Shown here: positions 20,322-42,870 of the stretch, piece by piece
Numbering within the stretch: the stretch's first letter is position 1
Layout of the letters: each line of letters starts with the position of its first letter
Assembly (NCBI RefSeq): GCF_026262505.1
Contig: NC_067203.1
Span: 17,186,392 to 17,250,391, forward strand
DNA from: Trichomonas vaginalis G3
Taxonomy: Eukaryota > Parabasalia > Trichomonadida > Trichomonadidae
DNA: 64,000 nt
Direction of reading: 5' to 3'
The notes under the pieces: generated by a model
The model's database searches: none
Told to the model about the DNA's origin: nothing
What the model saw: the letters and a program-made list of their open reading frames with translations, nothing else
Position numbers and translations under genes: made by a program

Positions 20322-20353
20322 ATCCAACTATTCTATATTTTTACCCATATGAA

Positions 20354-22273: not shown

Positions 22274-22291
22274 CTTTTTATTCTAAGTAAA

Positions 22292-22596
22292 ATGTCATTT
22301 CCGAAAAATAGAAGCGTAAGTGTTTCAAAAGGTTTAATGGCGATGGCAGATGTGAAGTTAAATTCACCAACTCAAACAAACAGTCAAAGTGTTGTTGTCA
22401 ATGTCAAAGAAAGAGATGTTGAAGTGGGAAACCATACGAAGACGAAGATGGTATAACAATAGTTCCTGTAAAAGAACAACCAACATATCCTGAAGTTAGC
22501 AGAGACTTAAGTTCTGTTGCAGATATTCGAAACGACTACCAACAACTTAAAGACAACTTAAAACTCAGGAGAAGATTTGTCAGGCTTTGGGTATAA
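22292..22596 (+). pseudogene. Small Maverick protein, one frameshift
   Basis: The gene starts at MSFPKNRSVSVSKG after AAGTAAA, a start context repeated across the element, and runs about 55 codons to a stop. The other frame then continues with EDEDGITIVPVKEQPTYPEV and RNDYQQLKDNLKLRRRF to a TAA that overlaps the next ATG (TAATG). Together they give about 100 residues. No family is recognised. Confidence 0.5.
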
Positions 22597-22870
22597 TGTT
22601 AAACTTGGTTGAGCACAACCCTGTAAAAGTGAACTCATATGTCATCGCACCTCATGAAGTTTTGAAAGAACTATTGAAACTTTTGACAGAGGCAGACGAT
22701 ATAAACATCAAAGAAATAGAACCCGACATTGCTTGCTGTGGTGTTTCATATAATGTCATTGACAAGATATACGTTATGAAAGGAGTGAAACGTTGAACTT
22801 AAAATATAGTTTCCCAGACGTCATAAAAATATTTGACGACCACAACATTTCATTAAAGTTTGTTTGCTAA
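22596..22870 (+). pseudogene. Small Maverick protein, one frameshift
   Basis: It starts at MLNLVEHNPVKVNSYVIAPH, sharing an A with the preceding stop codon. About 66 codons run to a stop at 22796. A second frame continues (LNLKYSFPDVIKIFDDHNIS) to TAA at 22870, so the gene is about 90 residues with one base lost or gained near 22793. No family is recognised. Six bases separate it from the next start. Confidence 0.45.
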
Positions 22871-22876
22871 GTAAAA

Positions 22877-23107
22877 ATGTCAAAACTTCTTGAAAGATGT
22901 TTGAAGAAAAACAATATAGACTTTATTTCATGTAAAGGACTTTACACACTTTTGAACGATATGAAAGACCCTGTTTTGTTTGTTCGTGTAGACAAAGGAA
23001 AGTTCTATGTCTTTACAAAATATTTGAACTTCTTAGACAGAGAACTTCAAGAAACGCCATGTGAAAGTTTAGATGAAGTTCTTCTCCACTTTCAGAAAAA
23101 CTTTTAA
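22877..23107 (+). CDS. Small Maverick protein (76 residues)
   Basis: An intact short frame, MSKLLERCLKKNNIDFISCK and onward, preceded by CTAAGTAAAA. It shares an overall pattern (short alpha/beta, Lys-rich) with its upstream neighbour but has no recognisable domain. Tight head-to-tail spacing and the shared start context support it being real. Confidence 0.5.
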   Translation: MSKLLERCLKKNNIDFISCKGLYTLLNDMKDPVLFVRVDKGKFYVFTKYLNFLDRELQETPCESLDEVLLHFQKNF

Positions 23108-23117
23108 ATATATGTAA

Positions 23118-23921
23118 ATGGCAGAAGACATAGTGGTTTATACTATACGACTAAAAACCTGAGTCATATAATTCTATAACAACAAACTTACAAAGTCCTC
23201 AAGGACGGTATTGTAAACTGACCTTAAACACGATGACGACTAAAGCCTGTTTTGCTCTTTTGACACCAGAAGATTTTATTGTTGTGAATGGTAAAAAAAT
23301 ACTCCTTTGAAGATACTTACTCAGATATACCACCAACAGGTTTTGTTGACTTATTTAATACTTTAAGGACGGATGTAACATGTCTGCAACTAGAGCAGGT
23401 TTTCATTATGTTTGGATGTCCGACTGAGTTTAGTATAAACGATATGAGCTATAATACAAAACTTATATCTGGTTTTTACTACCAACAGTTTCCTATAACA
23501 GGAAAAGGTGCATACAAGGAATGTCTGTTCCATTGACTTTAAGCACACCTATTTTATATATTGTTTCAAACTTAGGTTCAAATGCTATTCGAATGTCGAC
23601 AGAAACTACTATGACCAAAAGATACTCATGCGTATAAACAACAACTTTCTTGCTGGTTTGCCTATTGTTCATTCGAATGCAGAGTTTTCAGCTTTAGTGA
23701 ACTCAAACACTTTGGCAAACATAAACTTAACCTTAGTTGACGCAAACTTTGTTCCTGTAAAACTTTTATGTCCTATGTATTTGTCAATGACGGCAGAAAG
23801 TTTCGAATTGGAAGATGCAACTGGTGAAAGTATTGTACTACAAGAACAACTTCAACAACAAATAGCTCAAGAACAACAAATGCAACAAATGGAACAAATG
23901 CAACAAATAGCTCAAGAATAA
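23118..23921 (+). pseudogene. Probable minor capsid (penton-type) protein, several frameshifts
   Basis: Pieces in different frames follow one another without gaps: MAEDIVVYTIRLK (23118), SPQGRYCKLTLNTMTTKACF (about 23190-23285), YSFEDTYSDIPPTGFVDLFN (23300-23515), LSTPILYIVSNLGSNAIRMS (about 23530-23620) and INNNFLAGLPIVHSNAEFSA onward to a Gln-rich tail. Together they give about 265 residues, rich in beta strands. Position after the capsid gene and features such as TPILYIVSNLG and VKLLCPMYLSM fit a single-jelly-roll minor capsid protein. At least three or four single-base shifts break it. The assignment is an inference from context and strand pattern. Confidence 0.6.
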
Positions 23922-23950
23922 AAAAAATATTTTTTTTATTTTTTATAAAA

Positions 23951-25215
23951 ATGTACAGAATAGACGTTTCAGATTTTTATGACTTCCAAGCCTTCAGAAA
24001 TATGTGTCCATTTAGAGACTATAACAAAGCAGTCGAGAATTTGAAACGTTTAGTCATTTATGTCGACTCTGCCCCAGAATGTTATGTCATGAAAGAATGG
24101 GATGTAGTCTTTAACAAACCTAAAGCGACAATAGTTTCAGAACAAGAATGTAAACAGAAACTTAAGAAAATAAAAGTCGTACAAGTTGGCATGAAGATGT
24201 TAGATGCTTGGGATATCTTATTGTCAAAGTTAGAAGATTTTTCAGTTCGTGGTATAAAGTTCTATACACCTTCTCCAAACTTCTATTCTATCTTCACTGG
24301 ATATAAATACGAACAAGTAGAATGGAAAGAAAATGTATAGAAGCTTGGTTAGACCATGTCAAAGAAATTATATGCAATGGAAACGAAAGAGTCTATGAGT
24401 ATATCTTATGTTGGTTTGCAAACACTTTACAACATCCAAGTGCTAAAAATGAAACTGCTCTCATCATAATTGGAAAACAAGGAACAGGTAAGAACACTTT
24501 CTTTACAGATATCTTATGCAAACTGTTAGAGGGCTATTCGAACCCGAATATGACAAACTTAGAAAACATCTGCGGTAAATTTAACTCTTCAATAAGAGAA
24601 TATGAAACTTATAGTATGTAACGAACTTCAAAGTATAGATACAACAAGGTTTTAAACTCAGATGCTTTGAAGAGTCTTTAACAGACAAGTTGGAGTTGTT
24701 TGAAAGAAAGTAATAGAGACCAAAGAGTTTGTGAAAATGTTGCAAACTTCGTCATGGTTTCAAACAACGCCGTTCCGATGAAGTTAGAAAGTTCTGACAA
24801 AAGATATGTAGTTGTCAGAACGTCAGATTCTCATATGCAAGATACAGAATATTTTGACGACTTAGCAGAAACTTTGACACCTAACTTTTACAACCACTTG
24901 TTCTCATATTTCATGACATTAGATATTTCAAAGTTCAATCCAAGACAAATTCCACATACCGAAGAGAGACAAACATTGTTAGAAGCAAACAAGAGTGTAT
25001 ATGAACTGTTCATAGATGAAACTGACTTTGAGTGTTTAGATGAAAGGTCATTGTACGATTCGTATAAACAATATTGTCAAGAATATGGTTATATGACAGC
25101 GTCTAAACGAACATTCTTGGCAAATGTCAAAAGTCTTTTAGACGTACAGAATGGTGTATATACAAAAAAAATTTTTCTGAGTAAATTTAAAAAAAATATT
25201 TTTTTTATCCGATAG
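23951..25215 (+). pseudogene. Superfamily 3 helicase (D5/phage-primase type), several frameshifts
   Basis: Frames 23951-24340, 24322-24621 and 24700-25215 form one protein of about 420 residues. The middle piece has the Walker A motif IIIGKQGTGKNTFF. A short piece near 24600-24655 has the motif-B-like CNELQSID. The last piece has the SF3 motif C region (FVMVSNNAVPMKLESSDKRY), followed by the usual helical C terminus. SF3 helicases unwind viral replication origins. An archaeo-eukaryotic primase domain is not visible in the N-terminal 130 residues. At least three base-level breaks lie around 24335 and 24605-24700. Confidence 0.75.
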
Positions 25216-25220
25216 AAAAG

Positions 25221-25639
25221 ATGACGAAATTCATCTCAGTAAACAAGTACATGTCAGGACTTAAAGAAGAACTAGACCCATTCACATATTTGAATGTTTA
25301 CTTCTACCATTTTGAAAGTCTACATTTGACAAAGTTTGGAACATCGAACCAGTTAAGTTTGCTATTGTGACTAAAAATGGTGCGAAATTTGAAGACTTAG
25401 ACATAGAAGGTTTGTTAACAGTCAAAGAAAGTTTTGACAGAAGGTTCTCAAACCTTAAAGAAGGCAAAGCATACAAACTTGTTATACCTTATGAACCAAA
25501 GAAAGCAGACGACTATGAATATTATGAGTCTAAGATAGTTGAAGTTCAAGGTAAATTGGGTAAAAAGATTTTAGAGTCTAAGCCGGTGTTTGCTCCTAAA
25601 GAGGAAGAGAACATTGACATTGACCCAGAAATGTTCTAA
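25221..25639 (+). pseudogene. Uncharacterised Maverick protein, one frameshift
   Basis: The start MTKFISVNKYMSGLKEELDP follows a T-rich tract six bases after the helicase stop. The frame breaks near 25315 and continues as NIEPVKFAIVTKNGAKFEDL to an acidic tail ENIDIDPEMF, about 139 residues in all. The position after a helicase and the acidic C terminus would suit a single-stranded-DNA-binding protein, but I see no diagnostic motif. Confidence 0.45.
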
Positions 25640-25655
25640 AAATAAAATTTTATTT

Positions 25656-26113
25656 TTACATGTCAAATTTCTTCTTCGGTGGAACTGGCTCTGGCTCTGG
25701 TTCTTTCTTCTCTTCTTCTACTTTCTTTTCTTTCTTTTCTCTCTTCTTCTTTTCTGGTGGAGTTATGTCAAACTTCTCAGAACCATATTTTTGTAAAAGG
25801 TCTTTGTCCTTTAATAGCTCTTCTATTCTGTTTTCTATTTCATTTTCAAGAACAGCGCATGTGTCTTCTTTGCATTCTAAGAAGTTTTTTGGACTTCATC
25901 TCTCCAAGAGGCGTCATCTCTGTCAACAAGTCTGTCATTGACAAATTTTAAGACTTCTCTGCTTAAGGTTTTATGGTTCTTGTCATATTCCCAGAAACAG
26001 AACTTTAGAACAAATTCACCTCTCTTGTTTACACTATGTAAGATTTTATGGTCGACAGATGTTTTGCTGTCGAAAAGCTTGTCTCGAATATAGATAGCGA
26101 AATCGCTAGACAT
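25656..26113 (-). pseudogene. Uncharacterised Maverick protein with Lys/Glu-rich tail, one frameshift
   Basis: The leftward frame from MSSDFAIYIRDKLFDSKTSV breaks at a T run near 25885 and continues in another frame (ECKEDTCAVLENEIENRIEE, then a Lys/Glu/Pro-rich tail ending KKKFDM). The total is about 150 residues. It is convergent with the preceding gene and divergent from the ATPase. No family is recognised. Confidence 0.5.
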
Positions 26114-27025
26114 TTCCTAAAAGATAAAAATTTTAATTTTTCTAAAAATGTGTTAGAAAAAAAGTTTGCTGACATTGACAAGAAATTTGAGAATGTTTTA
26201 AATAAGAACAAGAGGAAGTTGGAAAATGCTCAGATAAAACCCATACATGACAAGTTCTTATTTGCTCAGAATGGTATAACAGGTCTAATTGCACCACCTG
26301 GGTCGGGTAAGACTTTCACTTATCTTAAAACGGCTGCACAACAACAAGAACTAGATGAGAAGAACCCATTCTATGAGTTAGTAGTCATTTGTAGTACTTC
26401 TGGTCAATTTGACCAAACCGTAAATTCGTTCAAAGATATTATAAAAAAGTCTAAGTTAGTATGTATAAAAGACTCTGAGTTGTTAGATTGGATAAAGAAG
26501 TACCAAAGAAGAGTTTTGAAGTACAATGCTATAAATGAGTATGTCAATTCTAAGTTTAAAGACCCAAATGAGGAAATGCAGAGAATATTAGAGAAGAAAC
26601 ACTTCAGAAACAAACAGAAAGAGATTGAGTACCTTTCGAAGAAATTGCAATCTTACGATTGGAAGACTTACCCTCATAGATGTCTTCTTATCTTAGACGA
26701 CTTTGCTTCTCATCCTTTGTTAAAGAACAGAGAACAAGACATGTGTCGAATTCTTAAGAAGCTCAGACACTTTAACATTTCAGTTGTCATTTGTGTACAG
26801 ACAGCAAAGAGTTTAAGTAAGGATGTAAAGAGAATACTTACTGATATCATACTTTTCCCCGGATTGTCCGAAGACGATTTCATGGAACTTATGAAAGAGT
26901 CCATGGCAGGTAAGTTTGACAGACATGAACTATGGGAGAAGTACAAAGTCATACAAGACCCTCATACTTCTTTCAGAATTCATATCTACGCAAACAAAGT
27001 TCAAATTGTAAAAAGTCAAGCGTAA
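26048..27025 (+). CDS. A32/FtsK-type genome-packaging ATPase
   Basis: This is the Maverick packaging ATPase of the HerA/FtsK fold. Walker A is LIAPPGSGKTFTYLKT, Walker B is RCLLILDDFASHPLL, and a sensor Gln is in ISVVICVQTAKSL, all in the family order. It pumps DNA into capsids. The 325-residue frame begins at 26048, antisense to the neighbour. An ATG after TCTAAAA at 26148 is the more natural start but is out of frame, so a base change near 26150 is possible. Residues before about 40 are therefore doubtful. The catalytic core is intact. Confidence 0.85.
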   Translation: MVDRCFAVEKLVSNIDSEIARHFLKDKNFNFSKNVLEKKFADIDKKFENVLNKNKRKLENAQIKPIHDKFLFAQNGITGLIAPPGSGKTFTYLKTAAQQQELDEKNPFYELVVICSTSGQFDQTVNSFKDIIKKSKLVCIKDSELLDWIKKYQRRVLKYNAINEYVNSKFKDPNEEMQRILEKKHFRNKQKEIEYLSKKLQSYDWKTYPHRCLLILDDFASHPLLKNREQDMCRILKKLRHFNISVVICVQTAKSLSKDVKRILTDIILFPGLSEDDFMELMKESMAGKFDRHELWEKYKVIQDPHTSFRIHIYANKVQIVKSQA

Positions 27026-27118
27026 AAATGTAAGTGTTTTAGTCTTAGTCTGTTGTGGTGCTGGGGCTGTCGGTTCTTCTGGCTTTGGAATGGACTCGGT
27101 TGGTGGAACGTCAGCCAT
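26930..27118 (-). CDS. Short proline-rich frame
   Basis: MADVPPTESIPKPEEPTAPA begins at 27118, just before the 22-bp repeat block, and reads into the antisense of the ATPase C terminus. The N-terminal 25 residues are Pro/Glu/Thr-rich as in virion proteins. The overlap makes the C-terminal part doubtful. Low confidence. Confidence 0.3.
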   Translation of the reverse strand: MADVPPTESIPKPEEPTAPAPQQTKTKTLTFLRLTFYNLNFVCVDMNSERSMRVLYDFVLLP

Positions 27119-27128
27119 CCGTTTGTGT

Positions 27129-27532
27129 CCTGTCGGAAGGAAGAACTTTTCCTGTCGGAAAGAAAAACTTTTCCTGTCGGAAAGAAAAATTTTTCCTGTC
27201 GGAAAGAAAAATTTTTCCTGTCGGAAAGAAAAATTTTTCCTGTCGGAAAGAAAAATTTTTCCTGAAGGTCGGCCAAAAACTTCTCAATTTTCGAAAATTT
27301 GAATGGTTTACGGACGGACAACAGGAAAAATTTTTCCTGTCGGAAGGAAAATTTTTTCCAGTTGGAAGGAAAATTTTTCCTGTCGGAAGGAAAATTTTTT
27401 CCAGTTGGAAGGAAAATTTTTTCCTGTTGGAAGGAAAATTTTTTCCTGTTGGAAGGAAAATTTTTTCCTGTTGGAAGGAAAAACTTTTCCTGTTGGAAGG
27501 AAATTTTTTTCCTGTTGGAAGGAAAAACTTTT
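27129..27532. repeat. 22-bp tandem repeat in two blocks, each unit a mini-hairpin
   Basis: Six units at 27129-27260 (CCTGTCGGAAAGAAAAATTT-type) and nine at 27336-27532 (CCTGTTGGAAGGAAAATTTT-type) are separated by 75 bp of unrelated sequence. Each unit contains TTTCC-tgt(c/t)-GGAAA and so can form a small stem. Because 22 is not a multiple of 3 and the unit lacks stops, five or six reading frames stay open. These frames are by-products, not genes. Confidence 0.9.
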
Positions 27533-27642
27533 CCTGTCGGATGGAAGGACTCGGAATGCCAGAAGGACTCGGACAAGACAATTTACCATCTAGAGCTACC
27601 TGAGCCATCTTTGGTGTCAAGCTTGAAAAATATATGGTTCAT

Positions 27643-27801
27643 TTACTCTTCCTCTTTGAAGTTATCGAAATACTCTGTTATCTTTTCCTTCAGTAGCGGT
27701 AAGTCTTCTTTGAATGTAAGTATTGTACAACCTTTCATATCATAGTGTGTTTGAGGTAAAGTATCTTGAACTATCTGTTTAACATCTTCATTCGGTGTCA
27801 T
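27643..27801 (-). CDS. Small 52-residue frame overlapping the KilA-N stop
   Basis: MTPNEDVKQIVQDTLPQTHY begins at an ATG whose last bases are the stop of the upstream KilA-N gene (ATGA overlap), and it ends in an acidic FKEEE. It may be a separate protein read after the KilA-N gene, or the true C terminus of that protein displaced by a one-base shift. No family is recognised. Confidence 0.5.
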   Translation of the reverse strand: MTPNEDVKQIVQDTLPQTHYDMKGCTILTFKEDLPLLKEKITEYFDNFKEEE

Positions 27802-28448
27802 TGAAATCGGTAAGTTTTCGCGATAGAACCAATTTCTGTCAGATTGTAAATCTTAGCAAGGTCGTAAAAGCTTTTGTTGTTTCTTCTGACTAAATGCAAC
27901 ATAACCATATCTCTGTCTTCTTCATTTTCCATCTCTTCAGTGTAAATCATATACTTATAGTTCTTTTCCTTTCCTTTTGGTACCGAACGTGGTATTCTTT
28001 TCTGTATGTTTTTGTCTTTTGCTTCAAGCTTGTTCTCTAGCTCTTCACGTTCTTGTCTATGAATTTCATCTAACATCATGAAAATATAACAAGCATAGCG
28101 AGGTGAAGCCCACATTGCAACAGCATTTACTAAAAGTCTATGTACATACCAACCTCTCAAACCATTTGGCAAATTTTGACGATTTTCGTACGGAATCTCG
28201 ACCCGCGGTTTTCCGCCGGTCGCAAACATATGAGGAAATTCTTCTAAAAGTTCTTTTGTCTGTTGGTTTTCAAACCAATGGTATGCTTGCTTTGTAGAAC
28301 GAAGAGCATTCAAAATACTTTGCATTTGGTACATGTCATCTTTGACCGAACGAATGAGACGTAACTGTTTGTTATACTGTATGTACTCGTATTCTTCACT
28401 TATGGCTTCATGAACGATAGCAGTTGTTGTGTTCTCTGTTGTTGACAT
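27798..28448 (-). CDS. KilA-N domain protein A
   Basis: The 216-residue product carries a KilA-N domain, a DNA-binding module of large DNA viruses and phages. MQSILNALRSTKQAYHWFEN is the first helix pair, and GWYVHRLLVNAVAMWASPRY is the family's G-x-(W/Y)-V-H-x-L-x-x-x-x-A-x-W-x-S signature. A coiled linker and a C-terminal region ending KTYRFQ follow. Start MSTTEN at 28448 is preferred, matching the spacing from TGTAAAGACAGTA seen in sister genes. A hairpin-forming segment (28179-28242) inside the gene is the parent of the array at 29255-29558. Confidence 0.8.
   Translation of the reverse strand: MSTTENTTTAIVHEAISEEYEYIQYNKQLRLIRSVKDDMYQMQSILNALRSTKQAYHWFENQQTKELLEEFPHMFATGGKPRVEIPYENRQNLPNGLRGWYVHRLLVNAVAMWASPRYACYIFMMLDEIHRQEREELENKLEAKDKNIQKRIPRSVPKGKEKNYKYMIYTEEMENEEDRDMVMLHLVRRNNKSFYDLAKIYNLTEIGSIAKTYRFQ
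28179..28242. repeat. Hairpin segment inside KilA-N gene A
   Basis: The hairpin CGACCCGCGG-TTTT-CCGCCGGTCG lies between flanks ACGATTTTCGTACGGAATCT and AAACATATGAGGAAATTC. Both flanks recur in the extragenic array, and the last array unit keeps both. It encodes the residues just before NLPNGLRGWYVH. Confidence 0.85.
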
Positions 28449-28547
28449 TACTGTCTTTACATACAAAAAAAAAAAAAAAAAAATAAAATTAGCGTTATTT
28501 TCTATCTTGTATAAAAGACCAAAAATAAACGCTTTACATGTATTTTT

Positions 28548-29150
28548 TCAGCAACTTTCGTCAAATAATTTTATAGCTTTGTCGATCTCATCTACTTCAA
28601 ACGTTTCTTTACCTTTCGTGGGAGCACCATACAATTTCTCAAACTTTTCAAGTAGTTCTGTTTCAGCAGCTCTCATATCGTTAACAAACGCAACCTTGAC
28701 TCTATTGACTATACTGTCATATCTTTGAGTTATATTAAATGTTCTTCCTATCTTATATCTCTTTGTATTGAAGTCCTTCGGTTTCTGAACGATGTAAAGT
28801 AAGCCTTCACTGCAACGTTCTGTATCGAATGAACCATATGTTATGAAATTATATCCAACAACTGGGTCAATCCAGAACAAAACTACTGGTATAAGACTTT
28901 TGTCGATGAGATATGCTCTTGTTCCATAGAATCTTACCGATATCATAAGCTCAGGATTTCTTGTCAAAATTTTCTGAGTTGAAGCATTTTTAACCCAGTC
29001 GTGTGCTTTCTTTCCTTCAGATAGTGTTAAAATGTCTGACAAAGAATATTTTTTGTATTTCTTTGAGTATCTTACGTTTAAATCACCAATTCTAACCACT
29101 TTGGTGTCATTGTCTATCTTTTTAACTGTTTCAAACTCAGTGTTTGTCAT
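28548..29150 (-). CDS. KilA-N plus T5orf172 (GIY-YIG-like) protein
   Basis: The 200-residue product has a divergent KilA-N N-terminal half (YSLSDILTLSEGKKAHDWVK, with LIPVVLFWIDP at the W-x-x-P position) and a C-terminal T5orf172 domain (GLLYIVQKPKDFNTKRYKIG, then ETELLEKFEKLYG). This pairing occurs in Bro-like proteins of large DNA viruses. The T5orf172 fold is related to GIY-YIG nucleases. It lacks the hairpin-encoded segment found in the two other KilA-N genes. It shares the upstream TGTAAGAACA motif with its neighbours. Confidence 0.75.
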   Translation of the reverse strand: MTNTEFETVKKIDNDTKVVRIGDLNVRYSKKYKKYSLSDILTLSEGKKAHDWVKNASTQKILTRNPELMISVRFYGTRAYLIDKSLIPVVLFWIDPVVGYNFITYGSFDTERCSEGLLYIVQKPKDFNTKRYKIGRTFNITQRYDSIVNRVKVAFVNDMRAAETELLEKFEKLYGAPTKGKETFEVDEIDKAIKLFDESC

Positions 29151-29254
29151 TTCCTGTTCTTACATACAAAATAAAAAAATAAAAAAAATAAAAACTAACG
29201 TTAATTTTATTTTTTCTATCTTGTATAAAAGATATGATTTCATAGAGTTTTTTT

Positions 29255-29558
29255 ACGATTTTCATGAGTTTTAGGCGACCAGGGTTTTTCTCCCACTCGC
29301 ATTTTTTCACGATTTTCATGAGTTTTTAGGCGACTACGGTTTTTAACGTACTCGCATTTTTTTACGATTTTCATGAGTTTTAGGCGACCCCTGTAAAAGT
29401 CGGGGTCGCATTTTTTCACTGTTTTCATAGGGTTTTTTTCACTGTTTTCGTACGGAATCTCGACCCTCGGTTTTCCGCGGGTCGCATTTTTTCACGATTT
29501 TCGTACGGAATCTCTACCCCGGTTTTTCTCGGGGTAGCAAACATATGAGGAAATTCAT
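29255..29558. repeat. Array of about 53-bp units with conserved flank and variable hairpins
   Basis: Five full units and one partial start at about 29255, 29309, 29364, 29418 (partial), 29441 and 29494. Each begins ACGATTTTC(A/G)T and ends GTCGCATTTTTT or similar. Between these lies a stem whose sequence changes while pairing is often kept: GCGACCCC/GGGGTCGC (unit 3), CGACCCtCGG/CCGcGGGTCG (unit 5), TACCCCG/CGGGGTA (unit 6). Units 5 and 6 retain GTACGGAATCTC from KilA-N gene A. It resembles an array of hairpin cassettes. Confidence 0.85.
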
Positions 29559-29572
29559 GAAATTTGGTCATT

Positions 29573-29690
29573 TTACTCAGCAAAAATATATTTTAGGCGA
29601 CCAGGTCCCTCGGTCCCTCGGTCCCTCGGTCAAATGAACTTCTCTGAAAAAGTGTGACAACATGACATTTTGACAACAACACAGGAAATA
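29573..29690. repeat. 130-bp module, copy 1 (inverted)
   Basis: It holds AAAATATATTTTAGGCGACC, three tandem GGTCCCTC-type nonamers, and GTGACAACATGACATTTTGAC near the other end. The other copies at 31679-31800 and 32668-32800 are in the opposite orientation. Confidence 0.85.
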
Positions 29691-29947
29691 TACTTCATCG
29701 TAAATGTTTTGTCATGAATTTCATCGTCAATGAGCGTAAATCAGACAAAAATATATTTCTACCATAAAGTTTCACAAGCGTTTTACATGGTATATGTTGT
29801 GATGGTGTTATATACGAAAACGATAAAAACGGTTTGACAGAAAAGTGACAACTTTACGTGTCAAAAATATAAAAAGTGATATTTTATTCATCATTATCTT
29901 CTTCATAATTTATTTCATATTCTTCGTCTTACCAACAAAAGATGGGA
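29691..29947. other. Spacer with orphan acidic 3' coding end
   Basis: On the minus strand, 29888-29936 reads DEEYEINYEEDNDE followed by TAA, which looks like the C terminus of a protein whose upstream part is missing. Directly upstream lies the cloverleaf repeat, so the gene may have been cut by that insertion. The rest is AT-rich. Confidence 0.35.
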
Positions 29948-30417
29948 ATGTGAACAATTGCGGGCAATTTTTAGCCATTTTGGCTTGGAACTAGAGCCTG
30001 CGAGGTACATGGATAGTATCAGTACCTCACAGGCTCTAGTTCTCTATATGGCGCCGAGAAATTTTGGTGAAATGTGGTCGCATTTCACCAAAATTTTTTC
30101 GGCGCCATAGGATGAATTGGAGGGTGAGAGATATTATTTCATACAATACTACTCTCACCCTCCAATTCCCAGCCAAAATGGCTAAAAATTGCCCGCAATG
30201 TGAACAATTGCGGGCAATTTTTAGCCATTTTGGCTTGGAACTAGAGCCTGCGAGGTACATGGATAGTATCAGTACCTCACAGGCTCTAGTTCTCTATATG
30301 GCGCCGAGAAATTTTGGTGAAATGTGGTCGCATTTCACCAAAATTTTTTCGGCGCCATAGGATGAATTGGAGGGTGAGAGATATTATTTCATACAATACT
30401 ACTCTCACCCTCAATTT
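29948..30417. repeat. Tandem 250-bp units that fold as a four-stem cloverleaf
   Basis: In unit 1 the outer stem is an exact 29-bp inverted repeat (29957-29985 with 30171-30199). Three further stems lie inside it: 29988-30008 with 30022-30042 (21 bp, one mismatch), 30048-30074 with 30081-30108 (27-28 bp, one substitution and one indel), and 30114-30130 with 30152-30168 (17 bp). The second unit repeats the sequence with a 250-bp period but lacks its right outer arm. Each unit is preceded by GTGAACA. It encodes nothing obvious. Confidence 0.93.
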
Positions 30418-30471
30418 TAATTACTTAAACTCATTCTATTTTTTTGACATGTAAATGTCACTTTTACTGAG

Positions 30472-30500
30472 ATCTGACACAATGTCAGATCTCTTTTTTT
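30472..30500 (+). terminator. Perfect hairpin with T run at a gene end
   Basis: GAGATCTGACA-CAA-TGTCAGATCTC followed by seven T has the form of a bacterial-type intrinsic terminator on the + strand. The stop codon of the leftward 297-residue gene lies in the right arm. A eukaryotic role is unknown; it could be a transcript-end structure or a protein site. Confidence 0.5.
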
Positions 30501-31378
30501 CGTATATAAGAATGGTTCATGACTTTAAACAGTTTTGTAGCTTCTATTTCTTCACGAAGGATATCAAAAGTTTTAACGATACCGAAAGTTTCTTTATATT
30601 TCTTCTTGACATCTGAAAGAAGGAAATCGTTAGCAGTTGGATAGTTTTTGTTCAGAAATGTCAACATGTCCATTTTATCTTCTGCTGGTTTCTCTGCTTC
30701 TTTCTTTAAGTCAGTATAGTCTTTTCTCATACGTTCTATCTCTTTGACGGAGTAGTTATATTTCCTTGTTGCTGCTTTACATTTTGAACATTGTGGGTTC
30801 ATTTTTGCATTGTACATTGAAACCTTACCTGCAAGTATGACTAAGGCGTAGATGGTTTTCTTTAACTCAAAAGTTGCTGGTTTTATCTGTTCGTTCCATA
30901 CTTTACCTCTTCTATCTTTATCTCTTATCTGCCATACACATTTTGCAACTAACGAAACAAAGTTGTCGTAGGTCTTAAACTCTTCAGATTTGTATATGTC
31001 AATGAAATATACCATATCGCAGTCTTTGTGGTTGCAATGAAATCCAAGAAACTCATAGTTTACCTTTCGTATGAACTTCTTTATTTCTACTGAGTCAGTT
31101 GGTTTCACTTCTATTTCATCGAATTCAGGAATAGTGAGCTTTTGTTGTTGTATTTCAGGAAGTTTAGGTAGATGGTCAATAATATCCTGCATTTCATAAA
31201 GATACTGTTCATTTGTTTCATCTTTCGCACTACAGTTTAAATCTCCTTGGAGAAGTTCTTGCTTTATCTTCTGGATTTCTGTTTCGAAAGTATATGAAGA
31301 AGGAATGAAGCTTTTCATCTCTACTAACATTGAAGTTGGGTTCATGACTAACGAGTTTGGTGAAGTTGTTGCTGACAT
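30485..31378 (-). CDS. Uncharacterised Maverick protein with Cys/His pairs
   Basis: The 297-residue product is intact. It contains FHCNHKDC and NPQCSKCK, a possible zinc site, and charged helices around them. The start follows TTGTAAGAAC within a 30-bp upstream sequence identical to that of KilA-N gene B. The stop is embedded in a perfect hairpin. No family is recognised. Its location between the repeat modules and shared promoter suggest it works with the KilA-N genes. Confidence 0.7.
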   Translation of the reverse strand: MSATTSPNSLVMNPTSMLVEMKSFIPSSYTFETEIQKIKQELLQGDLNCSAKDETNEQYLYEMQDIIDHLPKLPEIQQQKLTIPEFDEIEVKPTDSVEIKKFIRKVNYEFLGFHCNHKDCDMVYFIDIYKSEEFKTYDNFVSLVAKCVWQIRDKDRRGKVWNEQIKPATFELKKTIYALVILAGKVSMYNAKMNPQCSKCKAATRKYNYSVKEIERMRKDYTDLKKEAEKPAEDKMDMLTFLNKNYPTANDFLLSDVKKKYKETFGIVKTFDILREEIEATKLFKVMNHSYIRKKEI

Positions 31379-31408
31379 GTTCTTACAATAAAAATAAAAA
31401 ATATTTTT
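31379..31408 (-). promoter_or_regulatory. Promoter block shared with KilA-N gene B
   Basis: GTTCTTACAATAAAAATAAA followed by AAATATTTTT is identical to 32492-32521. On the coding strand, TGTAAGAAC lies directly before the ATG. Two other KilA-N genes have the same or a near version (TGTAAGAACAGG before 29150, TGTAAAGACAG before 28448). Confidence 0.7.
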
Positions 31409-31490
31409 TTTTAAAAAAAACTAAAATATATTTTTGCCGAATTCAAGAGTTTTGTGTGTTTTCTACGGTGGGCCAAAAGTGGCTCGACCT

Positions 31491-31650
31491 CAAAACAAGC
31501 ATTTCATGAAGAATATACCAACCGCCGGAATTCCGCGGGTTGCTTTTTATACAAAACATTTACGATGAAAGTCTCAACAAAACAAGCATTTCGTGAAGAA
31601 TATACCAACCGCCGGAATTCCGCGGGTTGCTTTTTATACAAAACATTGAC
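31491..31650. repeat. Two tandem copies (87-bp period) of a KilA-N gene B segment
   Basis: Copies begin at 31491 and 31578, each with AAGAATATACC, the palindrome CAACCGCCGGAATTCCGCGG-GTTG and CTTTTTATACAAAACATT. The arms of this palindrome do not match each other: the left arm equals the copy at 32612 and the right arm equals the gene at 32256, so they look chimeric. They are inverted relative to the gene. Confidence 0.85.
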
Positions 31651-31678
31651 GATGAAAGTCTCAACAAAACATTGACGA

Positions 31679-31800
31679 AGAAATCTATCTCCTGTGTTGT
31701 TGTCAAAATGTCATGTTGTCACCATTTTCAAAAAGATGTTAGTTGACCGAGGGACCGAGGGACCGAGGGACCTGGTTCGCCTAAAATATATTTTTGCTGA
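31679..31800. repeat. 130-bp module, copy 2
   Basis: CTCCTGTGTTGTTGTCAAAA begins the conserved part. Three GACCGAGGG nonamers and TAAAATATATTTTTGCTGAA follow. Opposite in orientation to the copy at 29573. Confidence 0.85.
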
Positions 31801-31825
31801 ATTCAATAAAAATAAAATGGTTCAT

Positions 31826-32488
31826 TTACTCACAATATTTTTGTACAAAAGGACCCCAAACTTTTAACCTCTCTTCTGCAGCTTCTAATGAAATTTTAGC
31901 GAGTTCATATTCTCTAAATTCTCTCTTTAAATCTTCTTGTTCCCATTGGTCTAGTTCGTATGGAGAGTCTCTATAACCAGAACATATCTCACGTTCATGT
32001 TCTATTTGTTTTTCATGCATTTTTCTAACTTCTTCTTCAAACAAAGGTTTTGCATTCTCTACTGTATCTTCAAGTTCTTCTTCATCTAATTTCTCATGAA
32101 CTTTCTTGTCTATGGAGTCCATAATTTTTCCAACTGCTATGCAATATTTTGGAGAAGCCCACATTGCTATATAGTTTACAAGTCTTGGGTCTACATACGT
32201 TCCTCTAACCTGTTTGATTTCATCGGGAATTCCTGCATGAACTGTGTATAAAAAGCAACCCGCGGAATTCCGCGGGTTGGTATATTCTTCACAAAATGCC
32301 TTAAAATACTCTTCCCAAGACTTATTTTCCAACAACCTTCTAAAGTCTTTCCTAAACTGCTGACACATCTTTGTTGCATTTATATAACCATCCTTGTCTC
32401 TACGTAAGACTTCAATACCGTTATAGGTGCCTTTTGTGAATGTTTCGCCATTAGATTTGTTCGTGAACGTTTTTGCTTCGACTGTCAT
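31826..32488 (-). CDS. KilA-N domain protein B
   Basis: The 220-residue product is the clearest KilA-N protein here: the hallmark DGYINATKMCQQF is present, then LENKSWEEYFKAF, and GTYVDPRLVNYIAMWASPKY. The C-terminal half is a charged coiled coil. Residues EEYTNPRNSAGCFLYT, just before GTYVDPRL, are encoded by a perfect 24-bp EcoRI-centred palindrome and its flanks, which is also copied outside the gene on both sides. Likely a DNA-binding regulator; target unknown. The frame is intact. Confidence 0.88.
   Translation of the reverse strand: MTVEAKTFTNKSNGETFTKGTYNGIEVLRRDKDGYINATKMCQQFRKDFRRLLENKSWEEYFKAFCEEYTNPRNSAGCFLYTVHAGIPDEIKQVRGTYVDPRLVNYIAMWASPKYCIAVGKIMDSIDKKVHEKLDEEELEDTVENAKPLFEEEVRKMHEKQIEHEREICSGYRDSPYELDQWEQEDLKREFREYELAKISLEAAEERLKVWGPFVQKYCE
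32256..32279. repeat. 24-bp perfect palindrome inside KilA-N gene B
   Basis: CAACCCGCGGAATTCCGCGG-GTTG is self-complementary around GAATTC. It lies in the coding sequence at the position that precedes the KilA-N G-T-Y-V-D motif. Confidence 0.95.
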
Positions 32489-32491
32489 ACT

Positions 32492-32521
32492 GTTCTTACA
32501 ATAAAAATAAAAAATATTTTT
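32492..32521 (-). promoter_or_regulatory. Promoter block of KilA-N gene B
   Basis: Identical 30-bp block to 31379-31408, beginning four bases upstream of the start codon. Confidence 0.7.
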
Positions 32522-32572
32522 GGCTTAACCGTCGGACATTCGTTTGTGGCTTAACCGTCGGACATTCGTTTG
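32521..32572. repeat. 26-bp tandem repeat, two copies
   Basis: TGGCTTAACCGTCGGACATT-CGTTTG occurs at 32521-32546 and 32547-32572. The sequence after it, TGGCTCGACCTCAAAACAAG, is shared with 31480-31500 and leads into the palindrome copy. Confidence 0.85.
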
Positions 32573-32583
32573 TGGCTCGACCT

Positions 32584-32650
32584 CAAAACAAGCATTTTGT
32601 GAAGAATATACCAACCGCCGGAATTCCGGCGGTTGCTTTTTTATACAAAA
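32584..32650. repeat. Third copy of KilA-N gene B segment with perfect variant palindrome
   Basis: CAACCGCCGGAATTCCGGCG-GTTG is again fully self-complementary, but both arms differ from the gene's palindrome by compensating changes. Flanks match the gene on each side. Inverted relative to the gene and located upstream of its promoter. Confidence 0.88.
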
Positions 32651-32667
32651 TTCAACGGGTGAAAGAA

Positions 32668-32800
32668 TACGATGAAGTCTATCTCCTGTGTTGTTGTCAA
32701 AATGTCATGTTGTCACACTTTTTCAGAGAAGTTAAAATGACCGAGGGACCGAGGGACCGAGGGACCTGGTGACCTGGTGAGATCTAAAATATATTTTTCA
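32668..32800. repeat. 130-bp module, copy 3
   Basis: Same content and orientation as copy 2: CTCCTGTGTTGTTGTCAAAA, three GACCGAGGG nonamers, then a short GACCTGGT duplication and TAAAATATATTTTTC. It ends in the 3' end of the following leftward gene. Confidence 0.8.
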
Positions 32801-33658
32801 ATACTTTTTCAGCACTTTTCCGTAGTTGTATATGAAAGACAATTCGAGATAAAAGTCATAGTACAATGGTATAATATGCTGCACACCGTTTGTTGTGAAC
32901 CAGACTTGAAAGTCAGAGAAACTGTTACTAGGTGGTTCGTAGAATTTAGAAGCAAAGTCATAAAAGTCCTTACCGATACAAAGAAAACTGTTGTTGCTTG
33001 AACTGAAACTTGCATGACACATGACATTTTGAGGGTCAAACACGTTTTTATAAACTGTCAAATCTGCTGGTGGAAGTACAAATTTAAATGGACCATCTGG
33101 TGGCAATGGTTCGTTCTGGTTTAGTAACCGAAGAAATTGCGCCCAAGAACGTCTGTCTACTCCCCAATATAAAAACTCTGTATCTCTTGGAGGGTTAATT
33201 TCAATCTTTTGAAATGAAACGGTGGAGTTCATCTTATCGTATTCTAGTTTTAGATAGTATGTTCCATTTAGTAAAGAGTGGTATTTTTCTTGAAATTCCC
33301 AGTAGTATTTGTTTATTTGAGTTTGAAAGTCATTTAGAGTTTTTTCAAGACTTTCGTCTGAACGAATTGTAAAGATTTTCATTTCGTCAAATTTTTCTAT
33401 TAGACCGTCAGAGCCTTTATACTGCCCATGAAAATATACTGCAAACATAAACGCGTTAGTTCTATTTGAAAACAAAACTCTTCTAAATCCTATTGCCTTT
33501 GCATCTGAAGGACTTTGAAGCCAACGAATTGGATAGTCAAACCTGTAAGCTCCGGATGAAATTTCTTCATCTGATATATTCCTACCAGCGTTTGTAAAGA
33601 TATAGTCTAACGGTTTTGTATCTGCTACTTTTGTTCTTTGTTTTTCAACCTGAAGCAT
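32798..33658 (-). CDS. Maverick structural-type protein, paralogue 1
   Basis: The 286-residue product is paralogous to the one at 40388-41236 over its full length. Shared blocks include KPLD-x-x-F-T-N, YRFDYP-x-RWL, KAIGFRR, FLRLLNQ, HASFS-x-x-N-SFLC and FSDFQVWFTT. It is beta-rich with many aromatics, compatible with a virion or spike component, but I recognise no described family. The frame is intact. It lies after the PolB gene in the leftward cluster. Confidence 0.7.
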   Translation of the reverse strand: MLQVEKQRTKVADTKPLDYIFTNAGRNISDEEISSGAYRFDYPIRWLQSPSDAKAIGFRRVLFSNRTNAFMFAVYFHGQYKGSDGLIEKFDEMKIFTIRSDESLEKTLNDFQTQINKYYWEFQEKYHSLLNGTYYLKLEYDKMNSTVSFQKIEINPPRDTEFLYWGVDRRSWAQFLRLLNQNEPLPPDGPFKFVLPPADLTVYKNVFDPQNVMCHASFSSSNNSFLCIGKDFYDFASKFYEPPSNSFSDFQVWFTTNGVQHIIPLYYDFYLELSFIYNYGKVLKKY

Positions 33659-33714
33659 TTTATATATGTAAAAATATACTGTTTTAAAAACGTTTTAAAA
33701 TGGTATGCAATTTT

Positions 33715-35866
33715 TTATTTCATGCAATGTTTTATTTCTGTGCCGTCTTCAAGTATGGCCCAGTACTTACGCTTGGAGAGAACATGAACTTCGGAAAATA
33801 CCTTGTCTAGCTTAAAACAGCCCATCTTTTCACCGACCATTCCCATTTCAATGAGTTTGTTGTACCCTTCTTCGTTCGTCATGAGCGCATCGATGTTCTC
33901 ATAGTATACCTTCACTTTGGATTTAACATCGGAGAAGAATTTGTTGTAGTTGTCAAGGACTGCCTTTGCGAACTGAGGGTAGGACCAATGTTCGACAATA
34001 GGTTTTACTGTGGTTACTAAGCCATTTTGACCTTCGGTGAACTCGTATTTCAAAACAAAAGGGGAGAACCTTTCAACAAAGTTGTCGACCTTCTCATAGT
34101 GTTTACTCTTCATCTTTTGAGGTTTTTTAATGGAATACCCCCATGTCGAATTCATAAGCAATTTGAGTGTCATTGCAAGTTTGGGGTTTGAAGCTTTCCT
34201 AATATCATACAGTTGTTGTATGACTTTTCCAACTGTATAGTTCCTTCCCGGGAACTCACCATCTTCGTTTGGAATTCCAGTCGGAATATATTCGACAAAC
34301 CTCATGTACGCAGCGTTAAGGTCGACATAGTATATTTTTTCGTATGAGTCGAACTTATCGCAACCAATGGGTCCAGTTCGTGGAAATTCAAGTGAGTCTC
34401 TTATCTTCTGAGAAACTTCTCCTGTTATCTCATAAACATCGTCGAAGCAACCTGTTTCATATAAAACTTTCTGACCTAACTCAGAAGCTCTCCAATACAA
34501 TTTGACGTCGATTGGATGCCTCAATGGAAGTTTGTTTATAGCATCTTGAAGTTCTTGCAACCTCATTGGAAGTTCTTCTGGTTCAGGTTGGTATCCGAAC
34601 AATCCAACTCCTTTTGGAACTTGTACTTCTTTTGTGCTAGAACTTTGTCTGGAACAACTTTTGGTCTTACCAACAATGAAAAGTTTGTTTCGTCTTTTGG
34701 TACAAAAGTTTCTGTCAGCTTGTCATCTGGAATTGGTTCCAACAAGCCTTTCTCGAAAAGAATGTTAACAGCTCTGACAATGTTGCATTTGCCTTTTCCG
34801 AACAATGGGTTTGTAAGACTTTCGTTCAACATGAAGTGGTTGTGGACAATTACAATCTTCAACCATGGTAAGTCTTTGTCAACAACATACTCATCATGTG
34901 AAGAACCTTTCTCAGTCGGAATGTTGACTCGGATATTCACATTTGCCAACGGTGCAATTTTTGTCAATTGACTTCTGAGAATGTACCTTGTTTTCACACA
35001 TGACTCAAGGTACTTCATCTTCTCATCTGAAACAAGACCAGAGTTCCTGAGACATGTAAGAATACAAGGTTCATTGACAATTTTTTCAATTGAATTGTAA
35101 ATTCCATACCTGGTTAAGTCAATGTCAGACTTATTTCTGAACGGGAAGTATCCAGCATGTTGTCTGACTGCTTGAGGGTTGGGTTGGTACCATTCGAACT
35201 TCACGCTTGCAATTCCTTCAATCGCATTCAAAATATCTGAGTCGGAGTCAAACATTTGTTCTCTCTTTGTAGTCTTGAAAGCGTCAAGAAGTTGTGCGGC
35301 TGTTGTGACATTGCCATGCGCATAGTATATATGACCATCTAAATCTGTTACGGTTAGTCTGAGATTGTATCCTTTCTTATTTCCGTCTTGTATGGCAGCA
35401 AGTACTCCCATGAAGCCTTCTTTGTTCTTTCCATCGTCAAAGTTTACTGTAAAGGTTCGACCAGAAGTAATTTTACTTCTAACCTCACGATACTTCTCAT
35501 ATGCATATCTTGTTCTTTCCATGGGAGCATGTGCGTCTTCACCTTTTCCTTTTTTCCTTCTCAAAGGATGCAATTGTTCGTCATGTTTCCAGTAGAATCT
35601 GCAAAGCCGTCGTGTCCTTCAACTTTGCGGTCATTAACATCGAAAGGCATGTCCATAAGACGCTCTTCTTCTAACCTCTCTAATCTGTTTGGATAATTTG
35701 CGCGTGCTGTTTCTAAGTCCATTTCGTAGCGAAGACCAGACAGTTTGTCATAGACTTTTATGGGTCTTCCCTTCCTATATTTAAACTTCTTTGAAACTCT
35801 CCAACCATATCTTTCTAACTCTGCTTTTATTCTAGCAGATTTTCTATCCATTCTATATGGGGGCAT
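33715..35866 (-). pseudogene. Family B DNA polymerase (protein-primed type), two frameshifts
   Basis: Frames 35866-35561, 35573-34563 and 34602-33715 read in order as one polymerase of about 715 residues. The last piece has motif A (YYVDLNAAYMRF), motif B (TLKLLMNSTWGYSIKK, the K-x3-NS-x-YG type) and, at the motif C position, YYENIDALMT, where most family members have YxDTD. KRKYW follows as in Polinton enzymes. A DxE exonuclease motif is not evident and the total is shorter than typical Maverick PolB. Breaks lie near 35565 and 34605. Confidence 0.8.
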
Positions 35867-35895
35867 TTTTTATAAAAATAAAAAAATATACTGTT

Positions 35896-36479
35896 TTAAA
35901 ATGGTATGCCATATAGCTTCTTGAATTTGTTAAGAAGTATATGAACGCATTTTCCATCTGTATCTCTAGCGTTTACATGAGCATAGCCATCCTTAGTAAA
36001 ATATACTTGTAATTTCCTATAGTTTACGCCGGTATAAAAGTAGAAAGAGTCTTGTTCTTCGCTATAGTAGTAAAAACTCAAACGTATGCTCGCCATAGTC
36101 TGTAATTTCAATTGTTTCATCTTCTAGTTCGTCGACAAATTCGAATACAATATCTCCAAATTTGCCTATGTTCTTATTGTTTTCAGAACGAGTGACCCAA
36201 CGCAAGTTTTCAAGTCTATTGTCGTTTCTTATACGGTTATATGGTCTACAAAAGGTAAATTGTTAGGATTCGGTATAAAATGAGTTGCAATACAACATGT
36301 TTTAAATAGCGTTTCCCACTCATCCTCATCATAGCATATCCGTCATTTCGCTCACATTCGCTTAAAACTCTTTTTGTCTCTTTTTTTCTGACTTCAAATG
36401 ACTCACAACAGTGAATTTCATATTTCTCATCTAACAAACAAGTTTCCCAACGGTCTTCTCCAACAAACTCAGCGTACAT
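35896..36479 (-). pseudogene. HNH homing-type endonuclease, frameshifted
   Basis: The frame from MYAEFVGEDRWETCLLDEKY holds YAMMRMSGKRYLKH, then a shifted frame gives THFIPNPNNLPFVDHI, and another gives NDNRLENLRWVTRSENNKN, the classic end of the HNH module of phage-type endonucleases. A C-terminal domain (DSFYFYTGVNYRKLQVYFTK) follows in the frame ending at 35896. At least two to three single-base shifts break it. Such nucleases often spread by cutting DNA; it may be a passenger in the Maverick. Confidence 0.75.
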
Positions 36480-36538
36480 TTCAAATAAAATAAAAAAATG
36501 TTTTTTTGAAAAAAATGTTTTGTTTTAAATGGTATGCC

Positions 36539-36627
36539 ATTTCATATTTCTCATCTAACAAACAAGTTTCCCAACGGTCTTCTCCAACAAACTCAGCGTA
36601 CATTTCAAATAAAATAAAAAAATGTTT
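36539..36627. repeat. Duplicate of the HNH gene 5' end
   Basis: About 90 bp repeats 36417-36505, covering the first 20-odd codons and the upstream CAAATAAAATAAAAAAATGT. TGGTATGCCAT at its junction also occurs at the 3' end of the HNH gene (35900), so the duplicate joins a 3'-end scrap to a 5'-end scrap. Confidence 0.8.
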
Positions 36628-36633
36628 TTTTCT

Positions 36634-37218
36634 TTACTTTACATAACCACCGGCTACCATAAGTCTTTGACGCCAACCCATACCAGCTAATGAAGGTTGA
36701 CTTGTTTTAGTCTCCAGACTAAACTTTGGTTTTGGTTTATCTTCAGTTTTTGGTTTCTCTTCTTCTATTGGTTTTTCGTCACTTTTCGGTTCATCTGACT
36801 TTACCTCACTTGCTGGAACAGTTGTGTCGTCAACATCTTCATAAATATCATATGCCATTTGTTTTTGTTTTCCTTTCAACTTTTTGTGTTTGTTGTAAAG
36901 TTTAGAATATTTCGACTCTAAGTCAATGAGATGTTCTATAATGAACTGTTGGTCAGTGAAGTAAACTTTTCCATCTGTTGTCTCGAAAGCTCCTTCAGAC
37001 TTCAATATTTTATTTGTGAGAGTCTGTTTCTTTTTTGAGATACTTGCCGTTCCATTTTTATGAAAAGTGACTTTGTAGTTAGGGTTTGTATTTCCAGACC
37101 TGGCACTTTCTATTATTGAATTTTTCTCTTCATCTGTAAGTTCTTTGACAGGTTTTGACAATGGTTCTGAACTTTTTGTTTGTGGTGTCAAATCTACCGT
37201 TTCAACTTCTTCGGTCAT
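36634..37218 (-). CDS. Acidic/Lys-rich Maverick protein with possible protease site
   Basis: The 194-residue product has a charged N terminus, a helix around residues 85-120 (HLIDLESKYSKLYNKHKKLK), an Asp/Glu/Pro/Lys-rich stretch and a short C-terminal SLAGMGWRQRLMVAGG. LAGM-G fits the adenovirus-type cleavage consensus, which would release a 13-residue basic peptide. TTTACTGAGATGAA directly precedes the ATG, as for the next gene. Role unknown; virion component inferred. Confidence 0.6.
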   Translation of the reverse strand: MTEEVETVDLTPQTKSSEPLSKPVKELTDEEKNSIIESARSGNTNPNYKVTFHKNGTASISKKKQTLTNKILKSEGAFETTDGKVYFTDQQFIIEHLIDLESKYSKLYNKHKKLKGKQKQMAYDIYEDVDDTTVPASEVKSDEPKSDEKPIEEEKPKTEDKPKPKFSLETKTSQPSLAGMGWRQRLMVAGGYVK

Positions 37219-37224
37219 TTCATC

Positions 37225-37392
37225 TCAGTAAAAAATTTTAGTTTGGTTTTTTTCAACTGGTTGTTTAGGTTTTTTAAGTCGGTCTAAAACTTCCTGAGGT
37301 ATAGGAAGAACTTGACAAACACGTGGTTGTGTAACTGCTGGAAGCCGACAAAGCCATCTTGAGCCCATTTGTCTCAATGCTGTATTGTTCAT
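37225..37392 (-). CDS. Small Maverick protein (55 residues)
   Basis: MNNTALRQMGSRWLCRLPAV and onward, ending in a Lys-rich DRLKKPKQPVEKNQ. The start context TTTACTGAGATGAA is identical to that of the preceding gene, which supports it. No family is recognised. Confidence 0.5.
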   Translation of the reverse strand: MNNTALRQMGSRWLCRLPAVTQPRVCQVLPIPQEVLDRLKKPKQPVEKNQTKIFY

Positions 37393-37411
37393 TTCATCTC
37401 AGTAAAAAAAT

Positions 37412-37812
37412 TTACATTCCCCACGTTTGAGGCGGTTGAGGTTGGTTGTTGTTTACCCACTGTTGTGCATGGTTATATCCTCTGTTAAAGAATCTTTCAC
37501 CTTGGTCCATGTAGTGCCCTGCTTGGTTATAGTAGTCATTTGCTTTGTTATAGTAGTTTCCTGCTTGTCTTCCTACATTGTCCATCCATCCTTGAACTTT
37601 TCCTCTTGTTTCAGGATTTGGAATAAGATTTGCTGCATCTCGTGCTACATCCCAACCTTTCTGTACGGTTTGTATAATAGGTTGTGCTTTCTCTTTCAGT
37701 ATACCTAAGTACTCAAAATCTTCCTTCCAATTCCAAATGCACCTCTGGCTAGTGTTCCCACTGCGGGTAAAAATCTGGATGCGACTCCTGCTAATGCGCC
37801 AAATAAACCCAT
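37412..37812 (-). pseudogene. Amphipathic pVI-like minor protein, one frameshift
   Basis: The N terminus MGLFGALAGVASRFLPAVGT is a Gly/Ala amphipathic helix of the kind found in membrane-active or internal capsid proteins, and MG could be myristoylated. A one-base shift near 37730 moves the frame to LKEKAQPIIQTVQKGWDVAR, after which Tyr/Asn-rich repeats (GNYYNKANDYYNQAGHY) run to QPPQTWGM. Total about 133 residues. Only 16 bp separate its start from the divergent integrase start. Similarity to adenoviral pVI is by composition only. Confidence 0.6.
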
Positions 37813-37828
37813 TTCTTATGGGTTAAAA

Positions 37829-40369: not shown

Positions 40370-40387
40370 TTTTATTCTAGATAAAAT

Positions 40388-41236: not shown

Positions 41237-41238
41237 TT

Positions 41239-41481: not shown

Positions 41482-41499
41482 TTTACTATATGTAAAAAT

Positions 41500-41862: not shown

Positions 41863-41885
41863 TTAATATTAGATAAAAATATCTC

Positions 41886-42017
41886 TTACGAGTACATATG
41901 CTGAACATTTGCTGGTATTGGTTCATCTTCATATTCTCTATATCTTTCTGCCACGTCAAATAAGTAAATGACACAATGGAAAAAACCTAAAACAAGTAGT
42001 CCTATTTCAAACCACAT
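41886..42017 (-). CDS. 43-residue single-span membrane protein
   Basis: MWFEIGLLVLGFFHCVIYLF is a single hydrophobic span, followed by an acidic tail (YREYEDEPIPANVQ). Its start overlaps the methyltransferase stop by 16 bp. Small membrane proteins are common in virus-like elements. It is supported by clean composition and tight packing only. Confidence 0.5.
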   Translation of the reverse strand: MWFEIGLLVLGFFHCVIYLFDVAERYREYEDEPIPANVQHMYS

Positions 42018-42819: not shown

Positions 42820-42870
42820 TTTATATACAATAAAAATGTTTTTACCCTGAAAAGTGACAGAGAAGTGACA

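Follow-up and report, generated by a model that had tools for sequence, protein, structure and literature searches.

The tandem set of long, nearly perfect stems found inside a 64,000-nucleotide stretch of the Trichomonas vaginalis genome (hereafter the window, C1:17186392-17250391) raises the question of what kind of element this structure belongs to and what keeps its arms complementary. The original prediction described a 243-bp unit with a 29-bp outer stem and three inner stems, repeated with a 250-bp period and able to fold into a four-armed cloverleaf, and the array was recovered by TRF and a repeat finder (Table 1). Folding of positions 29951-30200 as DNA gave -104.2 kcal/mol against -26.3 for shuffled versions (sd 3.28, n=200; z -23.8), none of the 200 shuffles reaching an equally low value, and folding of the same segment as RNA gave -164.6 against -60.8 kcal/mol (z -23.3). 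The four-armed form is the fold of a single unit; the two-unit DNA fold pairs the 3′ outer arm of unit 1 (30171-30199) with the 5′ outer arm of unit 2 (30207-30235), and the array can just as well be read as a string with four hairpins in every 250 bp, the cloverleaf being one of two pairings. The GTGAACA preceding each copy, at first suggested as a possible duplicated insertion site, is the loop of this inter-unit hairpin, the actual target duplication being ATGG. The second unit is indeed shortened at its end, as had been noted, but more than its last arm is affected, since the break falls inside arm 3 and leaves the unit without the foot of that arm and without its 3′ outer arm. A chance cluster of palindromes in the surrounding DNA can be practically excluded, given that no shuffle folds as well and that hundreds of copies with the same structure exist genome-wide. 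ARAGORN found no tRNA at 29800-30520, and no Rfam family reached its gathering score, the microRNA-type matches being weak and all below that score; identity as a tRNA or as a member of an Rfam family was accordingly dropped. The arm-2 pattern had no exact match in a set of viral contigs from which records of the T. vaginalis genome may be missing.

Table 1. Features of the window, with positions counted from its first nucleotide.
Feature	Positions	Strand	Details
Maverick	16919..42933	.	66-nt inverted repeat at bounds, 97%
Target site duplication, left copy	29802..29805	.	ATGG; from empty Maverick sites
Whole inserted element	29806..30511	+	706 bp, TGTTATATACG...CGTATATAAGA; ends from empty sites and 48 distinct insertions
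Left subterminal region	29806..29946	-	minus strand resembles 3′ end of IS481EU transposase genes
Left terminal inverted repeat core	29808..29820	+	13/13 complementary to 30497-30509
Tandem array	29947-30416/30417	+	period 250, 1.9 copies, 99% identity (TRF and repeat finder)
Unit 1 as cloverleaf	29957..30199	+	outer stem 29957-29985/30171-30199, 29 bp (DNA and RNA folds)
Arm 1	29988..30042	+	21-bp stem 29988-30008/30022-30042, 95%
Arm 2	about 30047..30110	+	~28-bp stem with bulge, loop TGGTCG (repeat finder and folds)
Arm 3	30114..30168	+	17-bp exact stem 30114-30130/30152-30168
Inter-unit hairpin (arm 4)	30171..30235	+	29-bp stem, 7-nt loop GTGAACA 30200-30206 (two-unit DNA fold)
Unit 2	30201..30417	+	ends inside arm 3
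Maverick DUF3839 ORF, host gene of insertion	30485..31378	-	PF12943, E 1.1e-143
Right terminal inverted repeat core	30497..30509	-	pairs with 29808-29820
Target site duplication, right copy	30512..30515	.	ATGG; from empty Maverick sites

The array was correctly held to be neither a gene nor a terminal repeat: it sits in a Maverick, recognized by its 66-nt inverted repeat together with ORFs for an rve integrase, an A32-type ATPase and a KilA-N protein (Pfam search), and within that Maverick it is internal to a 706-bp element. The limits of this element come from array-free Maverick copies, retrieved by a genome search with the array flanks, in which the left match ends at 29806 and the right match starts at 30512. 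In all eight empty sites fetched (L056-L063; a sample chosen by the flank searches, with L062 covered by 57 nt of the left flank only) the left and right matches share 5 nt, the last of which is the T that begins the element itself, and the element therefore spans 29806-30511 and is flanked by ATGG. Sites free of the element, a search for which had been suggested as a check, do exist, with their junction at ATGG rather than at GTGAACA. The suggestion of a nested palindromic mobile unit was likewise close, with the difference that the mobile unit is the 706-bp transposon with terminal inverted repeats (TIRs) around the array and not the cloverleaf alone. The window element contains no transposase ORF and has the features of a MITE-like element, being short, with TIRs and target site duplications (TSDs), and having long transposase-bearing relatives. 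Its insertion supplied the last codons of the DUF3839 ORF, whose C-terminal end reads MNHSYIRKKEI in the window and ..MNHHNIYHVKRL in the array-free copy L063. A replication or packaging structure of the Maverick, also considered originally, is unlikely because all eight homologous Maverick sites fetched, again a flank-search sample, are without the whole element, which hence does not behave as a Maverick component. Elsewhere in the window, positions 27128-27546 hold 18.7 tandem copies of a 22-bp repeat, through which long reading frames stay open on both strands, a 66-bp tandem repeat lies inside a minus-strand Maverick ORF at 39445-40000, and an ORF resembling an alpha-amylase by eye is present within long, 100% identical inverted pieces at 53329-58298.

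Searches of the 180.85-Mb genome, allowing up to 3 mismatches, located the left end of the element (25 nt) at 374 places, the right array junction at 173 and the left array junction at 150, while reversed-pattern controls gave 0 to 2 matches; the 173 right junctions alone dispose of the possibility that no second copy would be found. Of the 374 left ends, about 200 are not matched by any array junction, and the three of these that were examined (L064, L065, L066) are transposase-bearing pieces. Ten places, the window included, match a 481-bp query at 100% with equal top score, and the spread of the family therefore looks recent. Among 48 distinct insertions of this window-type family (fam1) with both ends present, chosen by their arrays, an exact 4-bp TSD is found at 42 and is absent at six (L001, L008, L018, L022, L028, L049), and none of the 48 has an exact duplication longer than 4 bp. 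Their lengths, from 456 to 3204 bp, all follow 206 + n x 250 to within 6 bp, corresponding to arrays of 0.9 to 11.9 units within a single assembly. Arrays of 0.9 units occur in 3 insertions, of 1.9 in 15, of 2.9 in 8, of 3.9 in 10, of 4.9 in 6 and of 5.9-11.9 in 6, frequencies that do not represent a fair sample, since the insertions were taken from the top listed matches and the first eight from a search with a 1.9-unit array. The 176 units of these elements contain 16 distinct base variants, of which 12 are singletons and one is common to two elements; the other three are private changes, each confined to a single element of the 48, where 2-6 units carry it, which fits expansion within lineages. 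At L052 (TSD GAAA), a window-type element has gone into the arm-2 stem of a module of the type carried by another family, fam2, placing a hairpin array within a hairpin.

Regarding the source of mobility, IS481EU is a superfamily described from T. vaginalis whose ends read TNT..AYA and whose TSDs measure about 4, 15 or 25 bp (Kojima and Bao 2023, PMC10045372). The fam1 termini, TCT...ACA on the minus strand, fit these ends, and the 4-bp TSDs at 42 of the 48 insertions agree with the shortest published class. A 3.9-kb relative (L065, C3:6338600-6342600) has the same ends, the TSD AATT and one module near its right end, together with a minus-strand ORF containing an integrase core (PF24764, 4.5e-14; PF00665, rve, 5.9e-12). 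The best NCBIfam match of this ORF is the IS481 transposase (1.6e-25), at 90 bits against a curated cut-off of 224 and hence below it, and its more remote matches in the PDB are integrases of retroviral type (best E 1e-4). Pieces from positions 1-125 of the element have 88-95% matches in L064, L065 and L066, and a stretch nearly identical to the left subterminal region was noted by eye where the transposase ORF of L117 has its 3′ end. Ends, TSDs and the long relative with its predicted IS481-like DDE transposase thus place the element in the published IS481EU superfamily, within which Banshee probably also belongs. Two stretches meant to extend L066 and L064 (L115 and L116) gave no match to L065, no right end and no module, and L065 contains at 3067-3137 another long, near-perfect hairpin with a 90% match in L066. 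The second family, fam2 (TGTAATGCATG...GCACAACA), also carries the module, with TSDs that by eye measure 5 bp and about 15-16 bp; in L073, L074, L075, L077 and L078 these lengths differ by about one helical turn, as in published IS481EU.

The module recurs outside fam1. Its arm-2 hairpin, with up to 3 mismatches, occurs at 1013 places genome-wide (441 + 572). Six sequence types of the module were distinguished, A-F (D being one copy), in at least three flanking contexts besides the window family; in L111 and L112, flanks of fam2 type are common to E and F. At C3:12595716-12601165, a type-F array with 22 unit matches listed has the same 250-bp period, so that arrays exist outside the window family too. 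In C4:16.98-17.18 Mb fam2 modules recur in both orientations, many of them about 6.3 or 8.7 kb apart, in what is apparently a large duplicated block; a small unplaced contig carries six type-B modules 10-14 kb apart (C82:30733-91128), and the module copies in L103 and L110 contain many single-base indels unlike the others, from decay or assembly error.

This distribution bears on the possibility that the module is itself an independent palindromic mobile unit, jumping between transposons and duplicating as hairpin-ended DNA, with the IS481EU elements as vehicles. The presence of similar modules in several different flanks (types A-F), in both orientations to the element ends, and the further array of the same period would agree with it, but neither a TSD nor a constant boundary could be found for the module by itself, its outer arms in types C and E taper off instead of stopping abruptly, and common descent with recombination among IS481EU families suffices, which makes independent movement unlikely. 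An aid to transposition, by which the array would bend or extrude near the element end or offer additional transposase contacts and longer arrays would move better, is similarly improbable. Such a role has been proposed for the tandem repeats of the foldback transposon Galileo, as mentioned in a report on Tetris (Dias et al. 2014, PMC4079207), and it is consistent with the position of the window array, 94 bp from the TCT end, and of the four type-C modules fetched (L065, L098, L100, L104; selected for the module), which all lie within about 70 bp of that end. It is countered by fam2, where hundreds of bases separate the module from the ends, and by the longest exact word common to the unit and the subterminal regions, which is AT-rich and measures 10 nt.

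The conservation of pairing was followed in an alignment of 17 of the 26 extracted units, truncated or near-duplicate units being left out. Pairs are kept at 98% in arm 1, 97% in arm 2 and 94% in arm 3, sliding of the stem partners lowers pairing from 90% to 40-45%, and double-sided changes affect three pairs in arm 1, three in arm 2 and one in arm 3. Covariation among copies is present to a modest degree: over the whole structure, 15 pairs are changed on both sides against a shuffle mean of 12.0, a value reached by 21 of 500 shuffles, but further pair types show no excess (39 against 40.4, reached by 412 of 500). Units of types C and E have a degraded outer stem, and in three other types its core is paired through different sequences (GCGGGC/GCCCGC in type A, GTGAGC/GCTCAC in type B, GCACCC/GGGTGC in type F). 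In L111 and L112, adjacent units of one and the same element carry the arm-2 loop in opposite orientations, and an inverted loop is seen again in type C.

Compensated changes in the arms and outer stem, together with the very stable RNA fold, could reflect a structured RNA carried by the transposon, transcribed and selected for its hairpins, for instance as a source or decoy of 34-nt PIWI-type small RNAs. Selection on RNA predicts that one-sided changes from standard pairs yield G-U more often than A-C on the transcribed strand, and this strand-specific wobble was looked for in 128 copies assigned to references A, B, C and E (none to F), with 18 copies skipped for indels or many changes. The distinct one-sided changes comprised 12 G-U, 7 A-C and 9 others, a strand preference that leans the expected way but is not significant (p = 0.36). 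Unpaired positions, 17.6% of the total, account for 15 of 48 distinct changes (p = 0.02); the stems thus change less, which fits either selection or self-correction. T. vaginalis possesses 34-nt small RNAs that map to transposable elements, and the interval 14-24 Mb of its chromosome IV has been described as a candidate piRNA locus (Warring et al. 2021, PMC7845603). Of the 34 left array junctions on C4, 21 fall within 14-24 Mb of that contig, among 100 places listed that reach 32.3 Mb of C4; this would favour an RNA role if C4 is chromosome IV, as assumed here, although the region may simply be transposon-rich. Module and transposase are on the same strand in L065 and on opposite strands in the long element C1:27363619-27367495, the latter known by coordinates only. 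Loop and module inversions of this kind are expected for palindromes that recombine or switch templates and are awkward for a strand-specific RNA; together with the wobble result and the absence of an Rfam family at the gathering score, they leave a structured RNA quite improbable and favour upkeep and expansion of the array at the DNA level. Module-transposase pairs within 5 kb were also counted, with 64 of 140 transposase matches entered and modules taken from the listed matches and four type-C loci, window-type arrays apart: in 11 of 16 pairs the module lies upstream on the same strand, in 4 downstream on the same strand and in 1 downstream on the opposite strand. An upstream same-strand link was discounted, given this coverage and since six of the 11 pairs come from one duplicated C4 region and another, at C5:21696615 (L117), reflects the insertion of a fam2 element into a transposase gene.

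In summary, the array very probably forms the interior of a non-autonomous DNA transposon of IS481EU type that itself sits within a Maverick, a reading built on what is directly observed, namely the element's ends, 4-bp TSDs, empty sites, dispersed near-identical copies, length steps of 250 bp and a transposase-bearing relative with the same module. The element would be moved in trans by a transposase of the IS481EU family, and its array may grow and shrink by unequal exchange or replication slippage between the 250-bp units. The stems would be kept near-perfect mainly because each arm can serve as DNA template for its partner, through template switching or gene conversion, a process that could also yield compensated changes and the inversion of loops and modules, while recombination and nesting may pass the module among IS481EU families. 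No function of the module for the Maverick or the host is demonstrated. A bolder version, in which the four-hairpin module is selfish DNA that invades IS481EU transposons, flips and multiplies in 250-bp steps via hairpin intermediates, templating its own arms and producing compensated changes without RNA, is tentatively put forward as possible but doubtful.

The interest of the transposon-borne array is that a single palindromic array occurs in one assembled genome at many sites and in graded sizes (0.9 to 11.9 units), mostly with clean TSDs, which makes testable both the survival and expansion of long palindromes in a eukaryotic genome and the origin of compensatory stem changes from DNA copying rather than RNA selection. 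The array also adds a feature to the IS481EU transposons and calls for caution when hairpins are sought in T. vaginalis by miRNA-style searches.

Among known systems, correction of quasi-palindromes and loop inversion take place at DNA hairpins, and the hairpin ends of parvoviruses exist in flip and flop forms. The module resembles these in its near-perfect inverted arms and in central loops found in both orientations, but no hairpin-ended DNA or replication protein is linked to it. With published IS481EU transposons the element has in common the T. vaginalis host, TNT..AYA ends, short TIRs, 4-bp TSDs, non-autonomous derivatives and, in the long relative, a putative IS481-like DDE transposase. 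The view that no element of this form had been described needs qualification, since the carrier superfamily is a described one, although the main text of PMC10045372 contains no mention of hairpin, tandem or palindrom; among the papers listed by full-text searches, none named this array in its title or in the opening of its abstract. The nearest analogue found is Tetris of Drosophila virilis, a non-autonomous element whose internal repeats of about 220 bp vary in number and have seeded satellite arrays (Dias et al. 2014, PMC4079207). Tetris/Galileo and the present element are alike in being non-autonomous, with an internal tandem repeat of 220-250 bp in variable copy number and satellite-like long arrays, and growth of the former has been attributed to unequal crossing-over (PMC4079207). 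Nevertheless, their repeats lie within long terminal inverted repeats, whereas here a single internal array accompanies short TIRs with a core of 13 nt, unlike a foldback transposon, and the unit consists of four hairpins, while the available text on Tetris does not describe its units as hairpin sets. The carrier superfamily is thus known, and what is unusual is a string of near-perfect hairpins that varies in copy number and is common to several related elements.
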